Positions 14,460-21,634 of a stretch of 47,021 nt of DNA are shown one piece after another. Under the pieces are notes generated by a model, which was not told the origin of the DNA, did no database searches, and worked only from the letters and a program-made list of their open reading frames with translations. Source of the stretch: a virus; IMG/VR virus record IMGVR_UViG_3300005253_000302, positions 1 to 47,021 of that record, one strand, 5' to 3'. Position numbers and translations under genes: made by a program. Each line of letters begins with the position of its first letter. Within the stretch, counting starts at the first letter, position 1.

Positions 14460-14653
14460 CCCCCAGGAGGCTGCTCACCCCCGACGACGTGGCGACGCGC
14501 ACCGGGCTCACCCGCGTCCAGGTCGACCGCCTCATCAAGCGCCGTCAGCTGCGCGCGATCCACTACGGCGCGCGAACCCCGCGCGTGACGCTCAACGCTC
14601 TCGGCGAGTACGTGATCGCCGTCATCAGGAAGGCGAACGAAGATGACCATTGA
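14456..14653 (+). CDS. Excisionase-like/MerR-type HTH protein, 65 aa
   Basis: GTG overlapping the previous stop (GTGA). LLTPDDVATRTGLTRVQVDR is a textbook HTH_17 winged-helix start: the T/DDVA helix, the turn at GL and the recognition helix VQVDRLIK. It is followed by the wing RRQLRAIHYGARTPRVT. Such proteins bind DNA as excisionases or as small transcription factors. There is no integrase in the window, so regulation is more likely than excision. Confidence 0.7.
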   Translation: MTPRRLLTPDDVATRTGLTRVQVDRLIKRRQLRAIHYGARTPRVTLNALGEYVIAVIRKANEDDH

Positions 14654-15155
14654 AGTGACAATCGACCTAGACAAGATCTACGTGGGCGAGGACGGGCAGA
14701 CTGCCGGCGACCAGGTTCTCGCGATGGCAGCGTCGCAACTCCTTGAGCAGCTCGGCCGCGACGAGGCACTATCCAACCTCCGGGCGAAGGCTAGCAACAT
14801 TCGCGACGAGATGATTCGTGAGCGCTTCGCGCCGCTACTGGAAACCGCGCTTGATGCAGCGGTTCAGCGCACCGATGCCTTCGGGCAGACCAAGGGGGAA
14901 CCGACGACCTTCCGCGAGGTCGTAGTCGAGCAGATTCAGAAATTTCTCACTGAGAAGCGTTACGACAACCGGGTGGGCCATACCAGCCAGCGGACCGCAG
15001 TGCAGGAGTTCATTGAGGAGAGCGTCGACCGAGTCGTCAAACGCGAGTTGACCGCAGAGATCACGGAAGCCCGCGAGCAAGTCGCGGCTGCCGTTCGCGA
15101 TCAAGGCGCGGCTGTCATCCAAGAAACGATCGCCCGATTGGCAGCTAAGCCATGA
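14643..15155 (+). CDS. Hypothetical helical protein, 170 aa
   Basis: ATG overlapping the HTH gene by 11 bases. The protein opens with a strand (MTIEVTIDLDKIYVGEDG), then long charged helices (residues 30-170), including SQRTAVQEFIEESVDRVVKR. No Cys and no nuclease motif. It sits directly before the putative annealing protein (ATGA overlap), so a DNA-recombination or DNA-binding role is possible from context only. Confidence 0.6.
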   Translation: MTIEVTIDLDKIYVGEDGQTAGDQVLAMAASQLLEQLGRDEALSNLRAKASNIRDEMIRERFAPLLETALDAAVQRTDAFGQTKGEPTTFREVVVEQIQKFLTEKRYDNRVGHTSQRTAVQEFIEESVDRVVKRELTAEITEAREQVAAAVRDQGAAVIQETIARLAAKP

Positions 15156-16156
15156 CTGAGGACCGCGAGCCCCCCGAGGTGATCGACCAGCCTACGGGCG
15201 ACCAGCCTGGCACCGACGTCGTGCGCCTAGAGCCGCCGCAGCCAACCAGTCTCACTGTTCCCGGTGGCGTCGACAACGCGCTGAAGGAATGGGAGGACTA
15301 CCAGCGGCTCACGCAAGACCTGCTCAACGAGTCCGACTACCAGCAGATCGGCCGCAGCAAGTTCAAGAAGAAGAGCGCGTGGCGGAAGTACGCGCGAGCG
15401 TTCAACATCTCCGACCGCGTGACCTTCGAGCACATCGAGCGCGATGAGCGCGGCCGGCCCCTGTGGGCGAGGATCCGCGTCGTGGCGATCGCCCCCAACG
15501 GGCGCACTGCCGAGGCCGACCAAGAGGCGCACATCGATGAGAAGTGTTGCCCACAGGCCGAGGGCGAGGAATGTAACCCCCGAGGGCGCCACACCCACTG
15601 CGAGGGGGGCTGCTCAGGGCGCATCCACTGGTCACATGATGGTGACATTCCCGCAGTTGCTCTCACGAGGGCGAAGAACCGCGCCATCTCTGATCTCATC
15701 GGGGCTGGCGAGGTCAGTTCAGAGGAGATGCAGCGCAGCGAGAACGAGGAGCGGGACCAGCCACAGAACGCCACCAGCCGCCCCCCACGGCCCGAGAACA
15801 GCACCCACGCAGCGAGGCGGACCAACCCCCCACAACAGCGTACGGAGCCAGCAGCGCCGCCCTGGGCGGACGAGCTGAAGGCGAAGCTGGCCGCCGTTGA
15901 GGGGCTCGACCTCGACTACGTGGCGATGGCGATCGGCGTCGCGAAGGCGACCAGCGCCGAGATCCAGAAGTGGCTCGACGCCAACACCGACTTCGTGCAC
16001 CCCCTCGACGCGCTCGTGGCGCAGGCGGTCGAGAAGATGCCGCCTGAGCTGCGCGAGAAGGTCGCGGCAAAGACCGCCACGGGCGGTGAGCCTGACGCGG
16101 TGAAGCCGGCTGATCCCGGCCCGGCGCAGGACGACGCGCCACCGGCGGAGGAGTAG
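15152..16156 (+). CDS. Putative ssDNA-annealing/recombination protein with zinc insert, 334 aa
   Basis: ATGA overlap. Residues 70-115 (KKSAWRKYARAFNISDRVTF and a beta segment) and residues 172-192 (TRAKNRAISDLIGAGEVS) match the core of phage annealing-type proteins I know, where the TRAKNRA helix is near-invariant. Between them a Cys-rich insert (C132, C133, C141, C150, C154) may bind zinc. Residues 195-240 are a Pro/Arg/Gln linker, then a helical C-terminal domain with YVAMAIGVAKATSAEIQKWL. Probably acts with RusA in recombination-dependent replication. Family assignment is moderate. Confidence 0.5.
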   Translation: MTEDREPPEVIDQPTGDQPGTDVVRLEPPQPTSLTVPGGVDNALKEWEDYQRLTQDLLNESDYQQIGRSKFKKKSAWRKYARAFNISDRVTFEHIERDERGRPLWARIRVVAIAPNGRTAEADQEAHIDEKCCPQAEGEECNPRGRHTHCEGGCSGRIHWSHDGDIPAVALTRAKNRAISDLIGAGEVSSEEMQRSENEERDQPQNATSRPPRPENSTHAARRTNPPQQRTEPAAPPWADELKAKLAAVEGLDLDYVAMAIGVAKATSAEIQKWLDANTDFVHPLDALVAQAVEKMPPELREKVAAKTATGGEPDAVKPADPGPAQDDAPPAEE

Positions 16157-16363: not shown

Positions 16364-16557
16364 GTGTTGAGTTTCGCGAGCACGCCGGGCTTGGGCACCG
16401 CCGGCGGCAGTTCGGTCGCACGACCGCGTGGGTCGAGTGCCCATTCTGTGGCGAGGAAACCGAAGCCTACGTCTGGTCACTTGCCGGGTCAGGGAAACGG
16501 TGTCGGTGCAGCGCCCTGCTTGGCCCGTTTGGTGCGTCTAGGGAGGTTACCGAGTGA
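16342..16557 (+). CDS. Small zinc-ribbon protein, 71 aa
   Basis: ATGA overlap. The start MSASESGGVEFREHAG is followed by VECPFCGEETEAYVW and KRCRCSALLG, a CxxC-CxC zinc ribbon. The first 22 bases of the gene are repeated exactly at 17477, where they open a chimeric mini-gene. No function assigned. Confidence 0.6.
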   Translation: MSASESGGVEFREHAGLGHRRRQFGRTTAWVECPFCGEETEAYVWSLAGSGKRCRCSALLGPFGASREVTE

Positions 16558-16790
16558 CCGCTGACAGCCACGGGCAGTCATGGCGCAAGGTGAAGGAAGC
16601 CACAACCCCCAGCCCTGAGCGCTTCGTCTGCTCGCCTGAACGGCCGTGGAAGGAAGGTGACGGTCGAGCGCTCCACCCCAACGTTCGCACGCTGTTCACC
16701 GAGGAAGGCAGCACCCGCGACGGTGGCGACTATGACCGGATGGAGTGCCCCGATTGCGGCGTCGGGTGGTGGAGGAACATACCCCAATGA
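16554..16790 (+). CDS. Small zinc-binding protein, 78 aa
   Basis: GTGA overlap. Starts MTADSHGQSWRKVKEAT; two CxxC-like sites (FVCSPERPW and MECPDCGVGWWRN). The first residues match the next gene's start (MTADS), and the bases 16555-16570 recur at 16788-16803. The peptide HGQSWRK also occurs near the end of a leftward gene at 25194-25559. Unknown function. Confidence 0.6.
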   Translation: MTADSHGQSWRKVKEATTPSPERFVCSPERPWKEGDGRALHPNVRTLFTEEGSTRDGGDYDRMECPDCGVGWWRNIPQ

Positions 16791-17233
16791 CCGCTGACAG
16801 CCAGGCCGAGCGAGAGACGACAGCGACCCTCCGTGCCGATCTCATCCACGAAAGCCTGCACACTCCTGCCTGTGCAGTGGGGGTGGCTGAGCAGGACGAG
16901 ATCCCATATGAATCGGATGGTGATCCTCCGTGCACCTGTTACGTGATCGAGCGGCTTGAGCGCATCGAGGTCGCCGCCCGTGCCGCTGGTCGCGCAGAAG
17001 CCGCAGAACGCATTGAGGCGCTAGAGGGGGCGCTGGACGCGAAGAGGGGTGAGGTTTTGTGGCTAGTATCCGAGTTGGAACTTGACGCCTCTGAGCACTA
17101 CAAGCGCGGAACCCCGAGCAACAACTTTGTCGCTGAGTGGATCACGCAGACATTCTTGCCAAAGTACCGCGCCCTCATCCCCCAGCCAGCAGAAGGGTCA
17201 GAGGCCAGCGAAGGAGACGAGGTGAAGCCATGA
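16787..17233 (+). CDS. Hypothetical coiled-coil protein, 148 aa
   Basis: ATGA overlap. MTADSQAERETTATLR, then ESLHTPACAVGVA and DPPCTCYVIERLERI, followed by a long Ala/Glu helix (EVAARAAGRAEAAERIEALE) likely to coil. Ends GSEASEGDEVKP. Its last 30 coding bases are repeated at 17527-17557, and its final bases make the GAGGTGAAGCCATGA junction. The combination of 'CTCYVIERLERIE' with an Ala-rich helix is common in small phage proteins without known role. Confidence 0.6.
   Translation: MTADSQAERETTATLRADLIHESLHTPACAVGVAEQDEIPYESDGDPPCTCYVIERLERIEVAARAAGRAEAAERIEALEGALDAKRGEVLWLVSELELDASEHYKRGTPSNNFVAEWITQTFLPKYRALIPQPAEGSEASEGDEVKP
17191..17221 (+). repeat. 31-bp direct repeat, copy 1 (gene-end cassette)
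   Basis: Bases 17191-17221 and 17527-17557 agree at 30 of 31 positions (T at 17198, C at 17534). Both encode EG(S/P)EASEGDE at a gene's C-terminus and include a GAAGGAGA ribosome-site-like core. Confidence 0.85.
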
Positions 17234-17487
17234 GTGACAGTGTTTACGCGAACCGTGCCCTGAACATGGTGCTAACCAAAAGGGGCCACCAGCGACGCGA
17301 CTGGAGTTTCGAGCACGATTTATTGCACACAGAAGAGGAGTGGGAAGGGCTCATCCTCAAGTTCGCGCTAGAGCATCGGTGGACCGATGTCGGGGCGCTG
17401 GCCCTTGCCGCTCAGGAGATGCGGATTGCGGCCCCCGTTGAAGCGATGGCCCGTGCGCTCGCCGAAGAGGACAGCCATGAGCGCTAG
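17230..17487 (+). CDS. Hypothetical protein, 85 aa
   Basis: ATGA overlap. All-helical look: YANRALNMVLTKRGHQRRDW, EEEWEGLILKFALEHRWTDV, LALAAQEMRIAAPVEAMAR. No metal or nucleotide motif. It sits in the micro-gene string; the 29-aa chimeric ORF begins inside its 3' end. Confidence 0.55.
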   Translation: MSDSVYANRALNMVLTKRGHQRRDWSFEHDLLHTEEEWEGLILKFALEHRWTDVGALALAAQEMRIAAPVEAMARALAEEDSHER

Positions 17488-17566
17488 CGAGTCAGGAGCC
17501 GAACAGCGAGCCCGCGCCCTCCTCCTAGAAGGGCCAGAGGCCAGCGAAGGAGACGAGCGTGGCTGA
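17477..17566 (+). CDS. Chimeric 29-aa mini-gene
   Basis: ATG at 17477 opens MSASESGAEQRARALLLEGP and the product ends EASEGDERG. Its first 22 bases copy the start of the 71-aa gene at 16342; its last third copies the end of the 148-aa gene. Only about 30 bases in the middle are unique. It may be a deletion remnant of a once larger gene flanked by these cassettes, or just a spacer that keeps translation coupled to the next GTG at 17559. Confidence 0.4.
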   Translation: MSASESGAEQRARALLLEGPEASEGDERG

Positions 17567-17729
17567 GCTCGGCCCCACCCCGCAGCTCTACACCCTCGAC
17601 GGCTGGCCGCAGACCTGGGCCGACCTGTTCACCCGGCTCGACGCGCTCCAGCGGCGGGAGGACCAGCGGCGACAGGACGGCGATGCGACCTACCGACACT
17701 GGCTCTCGCACGAAGGCCGCGTGGCGTGA
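17559..17729 (+). CDS. Hypothetical protein, 56 aa
   Basis: GTG start overlapping the mini-gene's end, with GAAGGAGA upstream (inside the repeated cassette). TPQLYTLDGWPQTWADLFTR, then a charged helix (LDALQRREDQRRQDGDA) and YRHWLSHEGRVA. No motif recognised. It is the last gene before the structured leader at 17.8 kb. Confidence 0.5.
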   Translation: MAELGPTPQLYTLDGWPQTWADLFTRLDALQRREDQRRQDGDATYRHWLSHEGRVA

Positions 17730-17784
17730 TAGGCTTCCTGCAGCCGTCCCGGCACGCCGCAGCCGGTCGGTCCATCCTGGGTGT

Positions 17785-17836
17785 GTGGGGGGTGCCTGAT
17801 TCACCCCCCGCCTCCCTCTCCGTAATCAGGACGGAG
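17785..17836 (+). promoter_or_regulatory. Leader RNA with two hairpins and complementary 7-nt loops (candidate kissing-loop control element)
   Basis: Hairpin 1: GGGGGGTG (17787-17794) pairs with CACCCCCC (17802-17809), extendable by one wobble and one G-C pair, with loop CCTGATT. Hairpin 2: CTCCGT (17818-17823) pairs with ACGGAG (17831-17836), with loop AATCAGG. The loops are exact reverse complements (7 of 7). ACGGAG is also the best ribosome site for the ATG at 17847, so hairpin 2 hides it. Loop pairing could lock or open this site, or the loops could be targets for an antisense RNA. Confidence 0.6.
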
Positions 17837-17846
17837 CGCCACGCGC

Positions 17847-18113
17847 ATGAACACGAAGGATCCGAACACCGTCTGGTCGCTGAGGGGACTCTCGTCCTCC
17901 GAGCGGCTTGTTATGCTGTGCTTAGAGCGCAGCCTCGACCAATACGGGGTGACGCAAGCCACTCTCTCAGAACTCTCTTACGAAACCGAGCTCGACCGCC
18001 GTACTGTGCAGCGCGCGATCGGCCACATGCTCGATACCTGCCGCCTCGAGCGCCTAGTCCACGCCTCACACCGAAAGCCAGCGGCTTACTTCCTGCGGTA
18101 CGACGACGAATGA
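17847..18113 (+). CDS. Winged-helix protein, candidate replication initiator or regulator, 88 aa
   Basis: ATG ten bases after ACGGAG, which is buried in a hairpin. GLSSSERLVMLCLERSL, then ATLSELSYETELDRRTVQRA is a helix-turn-helix followed by IGHMLDTCRLERLVHAS and a wing, the fold of phage and plasmid replication-initiation or DnaD-type N-domains. It is clearly related to the N-terminus of the next gene (GL..(S/T)ERLVML; RRTVQRA versus RSTVQRA). Binding to the phage origin is plausible but not shown. Only wing-type residues follow, so it is a single domain. Confidence 0.6.
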   Translation: MNTKDPNTVWSLRGLSSSERLVMLCLERSLDQYGVTQATLSELSYETELDRRTVQRAIGHMLDTCRLERLVHASHRKPAAYFLRYDDE

Positions 18114-19051
18114 GCGCGAGGGCGACGAAAGCTACACGGGCCATGCGAGGGCTCACGCCGACCGAACGCCTTGTGATGCTGAGCCTCGCCGACGCTGCTG
18201 ATGCTCACGGTGACGCGGCCCTCCCCATCTCCACCATCGCGACTGACAACGAGCTCGGGCGTAGCACGGTGCAACGCGCCCTCCGCCGGCTGGTCGCCGC
18301 TGAGCATCTCCAGCTCCAGCACCCAGCCACAAACAAAACCGCCGCCAACTACCACTTGGGGTTTCACCGTGACACCTCTGGAGGTACCACCACGGTACCC
18401 CCGGACGAGGCTAGAGGTCTCACTGGGACACCCCTAATTGCAGCCCCTTACAGTCCTTCCGGACGGTCCGGAGATCCTACTCCCGAGAGAGATCAACGAG
18501 AAAACGGATCTAGATCCTATAGAGAGAGAACGCCGAGCGCGCTCGCTGGGAAATCCCTTGAGGAAATCGACTACGTGGTTCTACAGCTCAAGCAGCGGAT
18601 GGCCCTACCGGGCACCCGGACGAATGAGCTGACCGCCTGCATCCGACGGGGTGCGACCATAGGTGATATAGACTACGCGATTGACGCCGCGCTCGAGAAC
18701 GATGGGATCTCGCCGCGGTACGTGATCCGCATCATCGATCGGCTGGTGCGAGAACGGAAAGTGCAGGATGGCAAAGCTACGGCAGCTACCGGCCGCCGAG
18801 GTGGAGCTGCTCCGCCAGGTCGTAAGCGCGCTGCGCCCCCTCAAGGTGGAACGCAGCTTGGACTGGCGGGGTCGGGAGAAGTGGGAGATCGTGCCGATCC
18901 CGCCCCCCCCTGGGCGAACCAGTACGACACGCCACCAACCGAAGGACTCAATGAGTACCGCCGGCGGGTTGCTCTCGATCGAGAAGCTGAGAGCGCGTCA
19001 GGCGCAGGAACGGTCCCACCTGCCGACGAGCGTGCTCAACAAGATGCGTGA
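18110..19051 (+). CDS. Replication protein with winged-helix N-domain (DnaD/initiator-like), 313 aa
   Basis: ATGA overlap. Residues 12-75 are a winged helix (GLTPTERLVMLSLADAADA, ISTIATDNELGRSTVQRALR). Residues 85-140 are a low-complexity linker. Residues 145-215 form a helical domain (SLEEIDYVVLQLKQRMALPG, IDYAIDAALENDGISPRYVI). It directly precedes the helicase loader, the usual place for a DnaD- or DnaT-type partner that recruits it. After about 18768 this frame looks less like coding sequence and a second frame looks better, so the C-terminus is uncertain. Confidence 0.6.
   Translation: MSARATKATRAMRGLTPTERLVMLSLADAADAHGDAALPISTIATDNELGRSTVQRALRRLVAAEHLQLQHPATNKTAANYHLGFHRDTSGGTTTVPPDEARGLTGTPLIAAPYSPSGRSGDPTPERDQRENGSRSYRERTPSALAGKSLEEIDYVVLQLKQRMALPGTRTNELTACIRRGATIGDIDYAIDAALENDGISPRYVIRIIDRLVRERKVQDGKATAATGRRGGAAPPGRKRAAPPQGGTQLGLAGSGEVGDRADPAPPWANQYDTPPTEGLNEYRRRVALDREAESASGAGTVPPADERAQQDA
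18768..18950 (+). other. Second coding frame overlapping the initiator-like gene, possible hidden small gene
   Basis: ATG 18768 opens AKLRQLPAAEVELLRQVVSA and continues to EKWEIVPIPPPPG with strong GC3 bias. It then meets a C8 run (18903-18910), after which the -1 frame (ANQYDTPPTEGLNEYRRRVA, ending at 19051) looks more genuine. One missing C would join the two halves into a gene of about 95 residues. As written, this frame runs on into the helicase loader. Confidence 0.35.
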
Positions 19052-19748
19052 GAAGATGGATGAGGCGGACGCTGCGCCGCCTCCGTGCCCGCTGTGCGCC
19101 GGTGCGCGCTTCGTCCGCATCGCTGTCCCGTTCGGGCACCCGATGTTCGGCCAGGCACTCCCCTGTGGCTGTGTCGAGCACTCCGAGGTGGCCGACCTGC
19201 TGCGCTTCGCCGGCCTGCCGCCGCAGTACGCCGAGAAGATGACCTACAGCTCGTTCGCGCCCCTCCTCAACCCCGAGGCGTTCGCAGCAATGGAGAAGTG
19301 GGACCAGCACGAGTCCGTCGTGCTCAACGGCGTCGTTGGGACGGGCAAGACGCACCTCGCCGTGGCGGCCCTCGTGCACGCCATCACAGACCGTCGGGAG
19401 CTCGGCGCCTACTGGTACGTGCCGACGCTGCTGGATGAGATCCGCCGGCGCTACAACGCCGGGGAGGGCGTCGAAGACGCACAGACGTTCATCGACCGGC
19501 TCGCGAGCACGCCCATCCTGCTGCTCGATGACCTGGGCGCGGAGCGGGCGACCGACTGGGCGGTGGAGCAGCTCACGACGCTGCTGGACCGCCGCCTGCG
19601 CGGTGACGCGACCACGCTGGTGACGACCAACTTCACCGGCATCAAAGAAGCGAGTAACAAACTCAGCGACCGCGCCGGCAGCCGACTCGGCGCGTGGCGG
19701 TGGGTGGGTTGCATCGGTCCAGATATGCGTGTTCAGAGAGGAGCCTGA
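18951..19748 (+). CDS. DnaC/IstB-type replicative helicase loader (AAA+), 265 aa
   Basis: ATG 18951 chosen (AAGGA upstream) over the in-frame ATG 18768. N-terminal zinc site C46-C49...C72-C74 (CPLCAG, PCGC), then FAGLPPQYAEKMTYSSFAP as in DnaC-like loaders. Walker A GVVGTGKT (127-134), Walker B ILLLDDLGAE (D193, D194), sensor 1 TLVTTN (about 222-227). Loads the host DnaB helicase at the phage origin using ATP. It follows the initiator-like gene, forming a replication cassette without a phage polymerase. C-terminal residues after KLSDRAGSRLG complete the AAA+ lid. Confidence 0.85.
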   Translation: MSTAGGLLSIEKLRARQAQERSHLPTSVLNKMREKMDEADAAPPPCPLCAGARFVRIAVPFGHPMFGQALPCGCVEHSEVADLLRFAGLPPQYAEKMTYSSFAPLLNPEAFAAMEKWDQHESVVLNGVVGTGKTHLAVAALVHAITDRRELGAYWYVPTLLDEIRRRYNAGEGVEDAQTFIDRLASTPILLLDDLGAERATDWAVEQLTTLLDRRLRGDATTLVTTNFTGIKEASNKLSDRAGSRLGAWRWVGCIGPDMRVQRGA

Positions 19749-21230: not shown

Positions 21231-21634
21231 ACGGCGATCGCGCCGGCCCGCTGTTCTTCCTCCTCGGCCTCATCACTGTGTTCACGATCTGGCTCGCTGT
21301 GGCCGTGCTCACCGAGGACGCGCCACCGACAGCTTCTCCCCAGCCGCAGGGCGCCGCACAGGGTTGGGCGCTTGAGGAGGAGCTGCCGGTAGCCCGGCCT
21401 CGTGCGGGGGGTAGCTCAGTCTGGCAGAGCACCCTTGATCAGGTGGTCGCGGGTTCAAATCCCGTCCCCCCGCATCTCACTGAGCCCGCACGACCGCCGT
21501 TCGTGTGGGACTACCAGCTCGGCCCCGGCCTCCACGGGCCGCCGATCACCCGCGCCGAGGCGCAGCGCCACCTCTACAACGCCTGCCAGGGGCCGGGCTG
21601 CGGGTGGTGGGTTGGCGTGATGGTGGAGATCTGA
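21227..21634 (+). CDS. Membrane-anchored protein reading into an interrupted lytic transglycosylase, 135 aa
   Basis: GTGA overlap with the methyltransferase. Residues 8-29 are a membrane helix (LFFLLGLITVFTIWLAVAVL). Residues 45-83 are encoded across a tRNA-like element (21405-21473) and read like translated tRNA (GGSSVWQS, VAGSNPVPPH). The end, GWWVGVMVEI, then TGA, is continuous in frame with a transglycosylase domain downstream. The true gene may be the membrane part alone or the whole of 21227-21838. Confidence 0.45.
   Translation: MNGDRAGPLFFLLGLITVFTIWLAVAVLTEDAPPTASPQPQGAAQGWALEEELPVARPRAGGSSVWQSTLDQVVAGSNPVPPHLTEPARPPFVWDYQLGPGLHGPPITRAEAQRHLYNACQGPGCGWWVGVMVEI
21405..21473 (+). tRNA. 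tRNA-like element with shortened anticodon arm
   Basis: Seven acceptor pairs (CGGGGGG 21405-21411 with CCCCCCG 21466-21472), T8/A9, D stem GCTC/GAGC with GG in the loop, T arm GCGGG-TTCAAAT-CCCGT. These are all canonical, and C1:G72 recalls tRNA-Pro. Between D and T arms only 18 bases remain (21431-21448) where 22-23 are normal, so the anticodon arm is about five bases short and no confident anticodon can be read. Either a decayed tRNA, an unusual one, or a base-loss error. No CCA encoded. Confidence 0.55.

Follow-up and report, generated by a model that had tools for sequence, protein, structure and literature searches.

The rep leaders of IncI-alpha, IncB and IncL/M plasmids, such as that of ColIb-P9 repZ, hold the ribosome site within RNA structure, and translation may depend on pairing between a loop and a distant segment. 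In the IncI/IncB-type leaders the resulting pseudoknot activates translation, and the system also has a leader peptide that is translated and an Inc RNA that is antisense. The RNA I and RNA II transcripts of ColE1 carry 7-nt kissing hairpin loops that are fully complementary. Loops that can contact each other are also described on a single RNA: in the guanidine-II riboswitch two tethered hairpins kiss in cis, with linkers of 7-40 nt across the family (PMC7357161, PMC9094411, PMC7544219), and the phi29 pRNA, a phage RNA, bears a pair of mutually complementary loops (PMC7357161).

Here, we describe a computational analysis of an intergenic leader in an unclassified phage, known from an orphan contig with a GC content of 66%. 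The window, IMG/VR record IMGVR_UViG_3300005253_000302, is the whole 47,021-nt stretch of DNA that was analysed. The leader contains two neighbouring hairpins, HP1 and HP2, whose loops are complementary over their entire length, and it precedes a run of replication-type genes. We present evidence that this arrangement is non-random, and we weigh a cis-acting translational switch against other explanations for it.

The leader and the genes that follow it

The features of the locus are as follows.

17559..17729, plus strand: small upstream ORF of 56 aa with a GTG start, read from the sequence; a ribosome-site-like AAGGAG lies shortly 5' of the start
17730..17846, plus strand: intergenic leader holding both hairpins, from the stop at 17729 to the ATG at 17847
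17779..17816, plus strand: extended form of HP1, 14 pairs with small bulges, consuming the linker; -26.6 kcal/mol, within the predicted fold
17787..17809, plus strand: HP1 core, GGGGGGTG-CCTGATT-CACCCCCC; pair probability ~1.0
17810..17817, plus strand: linker GCCTCCCT, resembling CTCC and able to pair with the ribosome site as a minor alternative
17818..17836, plus strand: HP2, CTCCGT-AATCAGG-ACGGAG; core pair probability 0.5-0.9
17833..17836, plus strand: ribosome-binding site GGAG within the 3' arm of HP2, read from the sequence; mean unpaired probability 0.04
17847..18113, plus strand: gene for an 88-aa winged-helix protein, a paralogue of the N-terminus of the next gene's product
18110..19051, plus strand: gene for a 313-aa winged-helix protein, likely the replication initiator (Pfam HTH_36, 8.3e-10; PHROG replication initiation, 1e-9)
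18768..19748, plus strand: gene for a DnaC-like helicase loader (PHROG DnaC-like, 7.9e-27; IstB, 2.4e-9), start uncertain

An initial annotation had placed two adjacent hairpins with perfectly complementary loops at 17785-17836, and both read in the sequence as it described them. The HP1 core has an 8-bp stem (17787-17794/17802-17809) closed by the loop CCTGATT (17795-17801), HP2 has a 6-bp stem (17818-17823/17831-17836) closed by AATCAGG (17824-17830), and the loops are exact reverse complements over all 7 nt. The account of HP1 as an 8-bp stem is accurate for the core, which is only the tip of the imperfect stem spanning 17779-17816. The ribosome site was rightly assigned to the 3' arm of HP2, where GGAG stands 10 nt from the ATG at 17847. 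The stems of the two hairpins are unlike each other and the match is confined to the loops; CCTGATT occurs only four times in the window, and the two copies outside the element are far off. Inspection of the sequence 3' of the HP1 stem revealed no T-run.

The winged-helix gene begins 117 nt past the end of the small upstream ORF. An exact 22-nt direct repeat, AGAGGCCAGCGAAGGAGACGAG, is present at 17200-17221 and 17536-17557, each copy covering the ribosome site of the following gene close to the 3' end of a small ORF.

The 88-aa protein shares 34% identity (E=6e-10) with the N-terminus of the 18110-19051 product and matches a PHROG annotated as replication initiation O-like (E=1.2e-5). Its structural model (pLDDT 86) has helices followed by two strands, and its structural neighbours are winged-helix DNA-binding proteins, including entries titled initiator and Rep-DNA complex; with a best E of 2.5e-3 and TM of ~0.5-0.67, this likeness is at the level of the fold only. 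The gene at 17847 had been annotated as a winged-helix replication gene, and the fold and the O-like match bear this out, except that the product is a winged-helix-only paralogue and not the initiator itself. By its sequence matches the 18110-19051 product is likely the full replication initiator, and the leader thus precedes a small initiator paralogue in an operon-like run with the initiator. A replication-type neighbourhood is supported, winged-helix genes being followed by the DnaC-like loader, whose first ATG overlaps the preceding gene so that its exact start is uncertain. The two genes at 17847-18113 and 18110-19051 are tandem winged-helix paralogues, the first lacking the C-terminal part, and lie directly 5' of the loader. 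Within the replication cassette the lowest GC content (53%) is found at 18500-18599, inside the initiator gene and beside GAGAGAGA runs, and this segment is a candidate origin. The surroundings of the leader show no iteron array. Two GC-rich viral contigs carry purine-rich GAGAGTGAGA runs inside the gene preceding a DnaC-like loader (L008, 4350-4405; L009, 4095-4155), a place that resembles 18485-18537 of the window.

Comparison with described RNA systems

The guanidine-II (mini-ykkC) riboswitch is the closest architecture in the literature. The two share tandem small hairpins joined by a linker (7-40 nt in the family, 8 nt here if HP1 is taken as its core alone); cis loop-loop contact is described for the riboswitch and proposed for the leader, and translational control is proposed for each. 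The riboswitch has conserved ACGR tetraloops that form two pairs and bind guanidinium, whereas these are absent from the leader, whose 7-nt loops, CCTGATT and AATCAGG, offer seven possible pairs. In the riboswitch the kiss hides an anti-ribosome-site linker and is the ON state; since HP2 itself contains the ribosome site, a kiss in the leader should be OFF. The riboswitch hairpins lie upstream of the ribosome site; in the leader the 8-nt linker between the cores falls within the family range, GGAG lies inside HP2 and not after it, and extended HP1 reduces the gap between the hairpins to 1 nt. The Rfam covariance model is not matched at the gathering score in the window, nor at E up to 10 in 17700-17900. 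Given its loop sequences and the Rfam result, the leader may at most work like a guanidine-II riboswitch rather than be one.

The plasmid rep leaders resemble this locus in having a replication-type gene, a structured ribosome site and translation that may depend on pairing of a loop with a distant segment. They differ in possessing an antisense Inc RNA and a leader peptide, neither of which was found here, and in the gene that is controlled, which at this locus is a winged-helix paralogue only. Their activating layout, a pseudoknot between a loop and a single-stranded site, is absent: the segment complementary to the HP1 loop sits in the loop of HP2, and HP2 itself sequesters GGAG. An open frame at 17726-19051 crosses the leader, though it seems unlike a leader peptide equipped with a ribosome site, and no sigma-70-like promoter was found for an antisense RNA, a consensus that may not be the host's. 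By analogy, it is plausible that the leader works like the plasmid rep leaders or the guanidine-II riboswitch; membership in either group is not supported.

The feature that the locus shares with ColE1 is complementarity of 7-nt loops over their whole length, which appeared in none of the 19,327 shuffled windows described below. In ColE1 two RNAs from opposite strands act on the replication primer, whereas here both loops lie in one leader. The phi29 pRNA likewise has two complementary loops on a single phage RNA, but these form four pairs between molecules in the packaging ring, while the present loops lie in a leader beside a replication gene. The put element of phage HK022 also has two adjacent hairpins in a phage transcript; it acts on RNA polymerase from a site downstream of early promoters, and loop complementarity is not described for it.

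Chance expectation, folding and relatives

To estimate chance occurrence, the window was shuffled 19,327 times with its dinucleotide composition preserved (909 Mb). A loose form of the pattern, defined as two hairpins within 60 nt with stems of at least 6 bp, loops of 5-9 nt and at least 7 complementary loop bases, appeared in 27 of the shuffles (p = 0.0014, a value for a single window, uncorrected for the number of windows scanned), and in 7 of the 19,327 when the stems also had to sum to at least 14. Two hairpins with wholly complementary 7-nt loops appeared in none (~900 Mb). The outcomes of smaller runs agree with these figures, 60 shuffles having given no pair with at least 6 complementary loop bases and 800 shuffles two parses with 7. 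Other real phage and genome DNA (277 kb) lacked any pair with stems of 5 bp or more and six or more complementary loop bases. Chance alone would produce the loose form in a scan of many windows, but scarcely the form with full-loop complementarity. The two-hairpin pattern is real and non-random, and is hard to explain by base composition.

Ordinary folding gives HP1 a probability of ~1.0 and the HP2 core 0.5-0.9, depending on the stretch folded, with the HP1 loop predicted to be free and the HP2 loop mostly free. The fold of the leader as a whole is not unusually stable when compared with shuffles (z = -0.99). Extended HP1 has a computed energy of -26.6 kcal/mol versus -16.8 kcal/mol for the 8-bp core; its outer stem, in which 17779-17786 pair with the linker, would cost ~9.8 kcal/mol to open. 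HP2 by itself is worth ~-7 kcal/mol and a plain loop-loop duplex -7.3 kcal/mol as computed. Kissing complexes are usually stronger than such a plain duplex. Set against the ~9.8 kcal/mol cost, the -7.3 kcal/mol gain leaves a cis kiss not clearly favoured on these energies.

The geometry of the leader imposes a further constraint. Extended HP1 leaves 1 nt between the hairpins, and by our reading the loops are then unable to meet. In a cis kiss with all 21 pairs formed, a straight-helix estimate has the 8-nt linker spanning ~59 A at 6.6 A per step, near full stretch; the strain would be eased by giving up one or two of the end pairs. The outer HP1 stem must therefore melt before the loops can kiss in cis, which implies two competing states instead of a static pseudoknot. 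The computed energies of the cis kiss and of zipped HP1 are comparable, so that a switch is possible, though a permanent kiss is not established.

The GGAG of the 17847 gene has a mean unpaired probability of 0.04, second lowest among 25 candidate starts scored in the window from a mechanical list of our own, in which 17560 and 18954 are each one base out. In the stretches examined its partners are mainly the 5' arm of HP2 and 17846, and at times 17771-17772 or the linker, whose bases 17813/17814 pair with it at 0.07-0.13; HP2 is predicted to occlude the site unaided. The upstream start near 17559 has an accessibility below that of the 17847 site. Low ribosome-site accessibility is common in a genome of 66% GC; both points weigh against the translational-control reading favoured below.

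Homologous leaders did not turn up in IMG/VR, in phages or in plasmids, whether by DNA searches of phages and plasmids for near and distant relatives, by protein searches with both winged-helix genes, the terminase and the loader as queries, or by DNA-pattern scans of IMG/VR. Stretches of the contig searched against 50,697 phage records gave no match, no near relatives of the leader genes were found anywhere searched, and the terminase is only 23% identical to those of two Paenibacillus phages. The 17847 gene has two distant relatives (~37% identity), neither with a comparable leader. Distant winged-helix relatives (L002/L031 and L032) were set aside, their starts lying against or inside upstream coding sequence without kissing hairpins. 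The sole exact match to the tighter IMG/VR pattern was discarded as AT-rich coding DNA of an unrelated phage (L003), and 20 matches to the looser pattern were attributed to chance, since their flanking stems have only 0-3 bp.

Elsewhere in the window, the 15152-16156 protein has relatives in Methanobacteriales viruses (32-43%) and in four IMG/VR contigs, L004-L007 (41-50%); L004 and L006, the two with genes listed, carry a different replication module. L008 and L009 have a related loader with a different gene upstream of it. Relatives of the 14643-15155 protein (27-34%) are hypothetical proteins from Arthrobacter phages. Rfam searches returned nothing in the window at the gathering score except a tRNA-like match at 21405-21473 (Rfam tRNA, 46 bits; ARAGORN reports none), and nothing up to E=10 in 17700-17900. 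The contig ends (46980-47021) in a palindrome of G and C runs that looks like a sequencing or assembly artefact.

A candidate switch and competing explanations

We tentatively favour, as a quite possible reading, an RNA leader acting in cis to restrict translation of the 88-aa protein, with the ribosome site occluded by default and loop pairing serving as a switch or lock. It is supported by the wholly complementary 7-nt loops that none of the 19,327 shuffles reproduced, by a GGAG among the phage's most occluded candidate starts (0.04), by loops predicted to be free in HP1 and mostly free in HP2, and by a position in the 117-nt gap directly 5' of a winged-helix gene in a replication cassette. 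Against it count the lack of a homologous leader, with two distant gene relatives that do without one, the melting cost of ~9.8 kcal/mol, the near-stretched linker and a leader fold no more stable than shuffles. The kissing-loop or pseudoknot switch in cis that had been proposed for this site is upheld in its hairpins, complementary loops and buried ribosome site, and must be amended in that a kiss would have to compete with the outer HP1 stem.

It is somewhat unlikely that only HP2 acts, as an ordinary ribosome-site hairpin, with HP1 an independent GC-rich hairpin that stabilises the mRNA or weakly terminates transcription, and with loops that match by coincidence. HP1 is indeed very stable alone (-26.6 kcal/mol), HP2 occludes the site unaided, the loose pattern arises in 0.14% of shuffled windows and would turn up in a scan of many, and no relatives show conservation; yet shuffling never produced the full-loop match, and the absence of a T-run after HP1, for which we rejected HP1 as a terminator, speaks against that part of the explanation. 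Pairing in trans, whether between two mRNA copies or with an opposite-strand RNA as in antisense copy control, would leave the outer HP1 stem unmelted and so avoid the energetic and geometric problem, and an opposite-strand RNA would bear both loops, swapped. We consider it unlikely: mRNA dimers require high concentration, an opposite-strand RNA would pair with itself too, and a search of both strands of 16500-19500 with a sigma-70-like model, which may not be of the host's type, gave no promoter-like site. The last result also leaves the suggested counter-transcript target unsupported.

The loop sequences might instead act in DNA, as an inverted pair of sites bound by a phage regulator or by the winged-helix proteins at an operator or origin. 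The downstream proteins are DNA-binding winged helices, and inverted repeats of 7 bp are not in themselves rare within short gaps. This explanation, which we judge quite unlikely, does not account for each copy having its own exact, perfect stem of different sequence; the element has only two copies, the remaining two occurrences of CCTGATT in the window being far off, and the 53% GC stretch at 18500-18599, a more likely origin, lies inside the next gene. With arms that differ and only the loops matching, a double-stranded operator ranks lower, whereas RNA loop-loop contact explains the pattern. An element of the HK022 put type, in which side-by-side hairpins of the nascent RNA act on RNA polymerase, seems most improbable. 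Extended HP1 and HP2 are one base apart, and put RNAs are two adjacent stem-loops of ~70 nt (PMC9378689). Put elements, however, sit downstream of early promoters, of which the same sigma-70-like search found none in 16500-19500; there was no Rfam match above chance, and loop complementarity is not given as a put feature in the passages cited.

For the favoured cis-acting leader, kissing of the loops in cis and the mechanism built upon it are what we infer. In one state, HP1 would be fully zipped (17779-17816) and HP2, standing alone at ~-7 kcal/mol, could be opened by ribosomes. In the other, the outer HP1 stem would open and free the linker, the loops would form up to seven pairs, and HP2 would be locked shut with translation off. 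As the two states are similar in computed energy, a ligand, a protein, a helicase, a translating ribosome or a second RNA copy could tip the balance. That the switch is self-contained, the cis kiss competing with capture of the linker by the outer HP1 stem and needing neither antisense RNA nor leader peptide, is a rather doubtful extension of the model.

The 88-aa protein may bind the origin as an accessory factor or as a competitor, and the leader would then control how much of a replication regulator is made. Should the loops indeed pair, the leader would provide a compact case, in a phage, of translational control by kissing loops in cis, adjoining a replication cassette, a form of control so far known mainly from plasmids and one riboswitch class.
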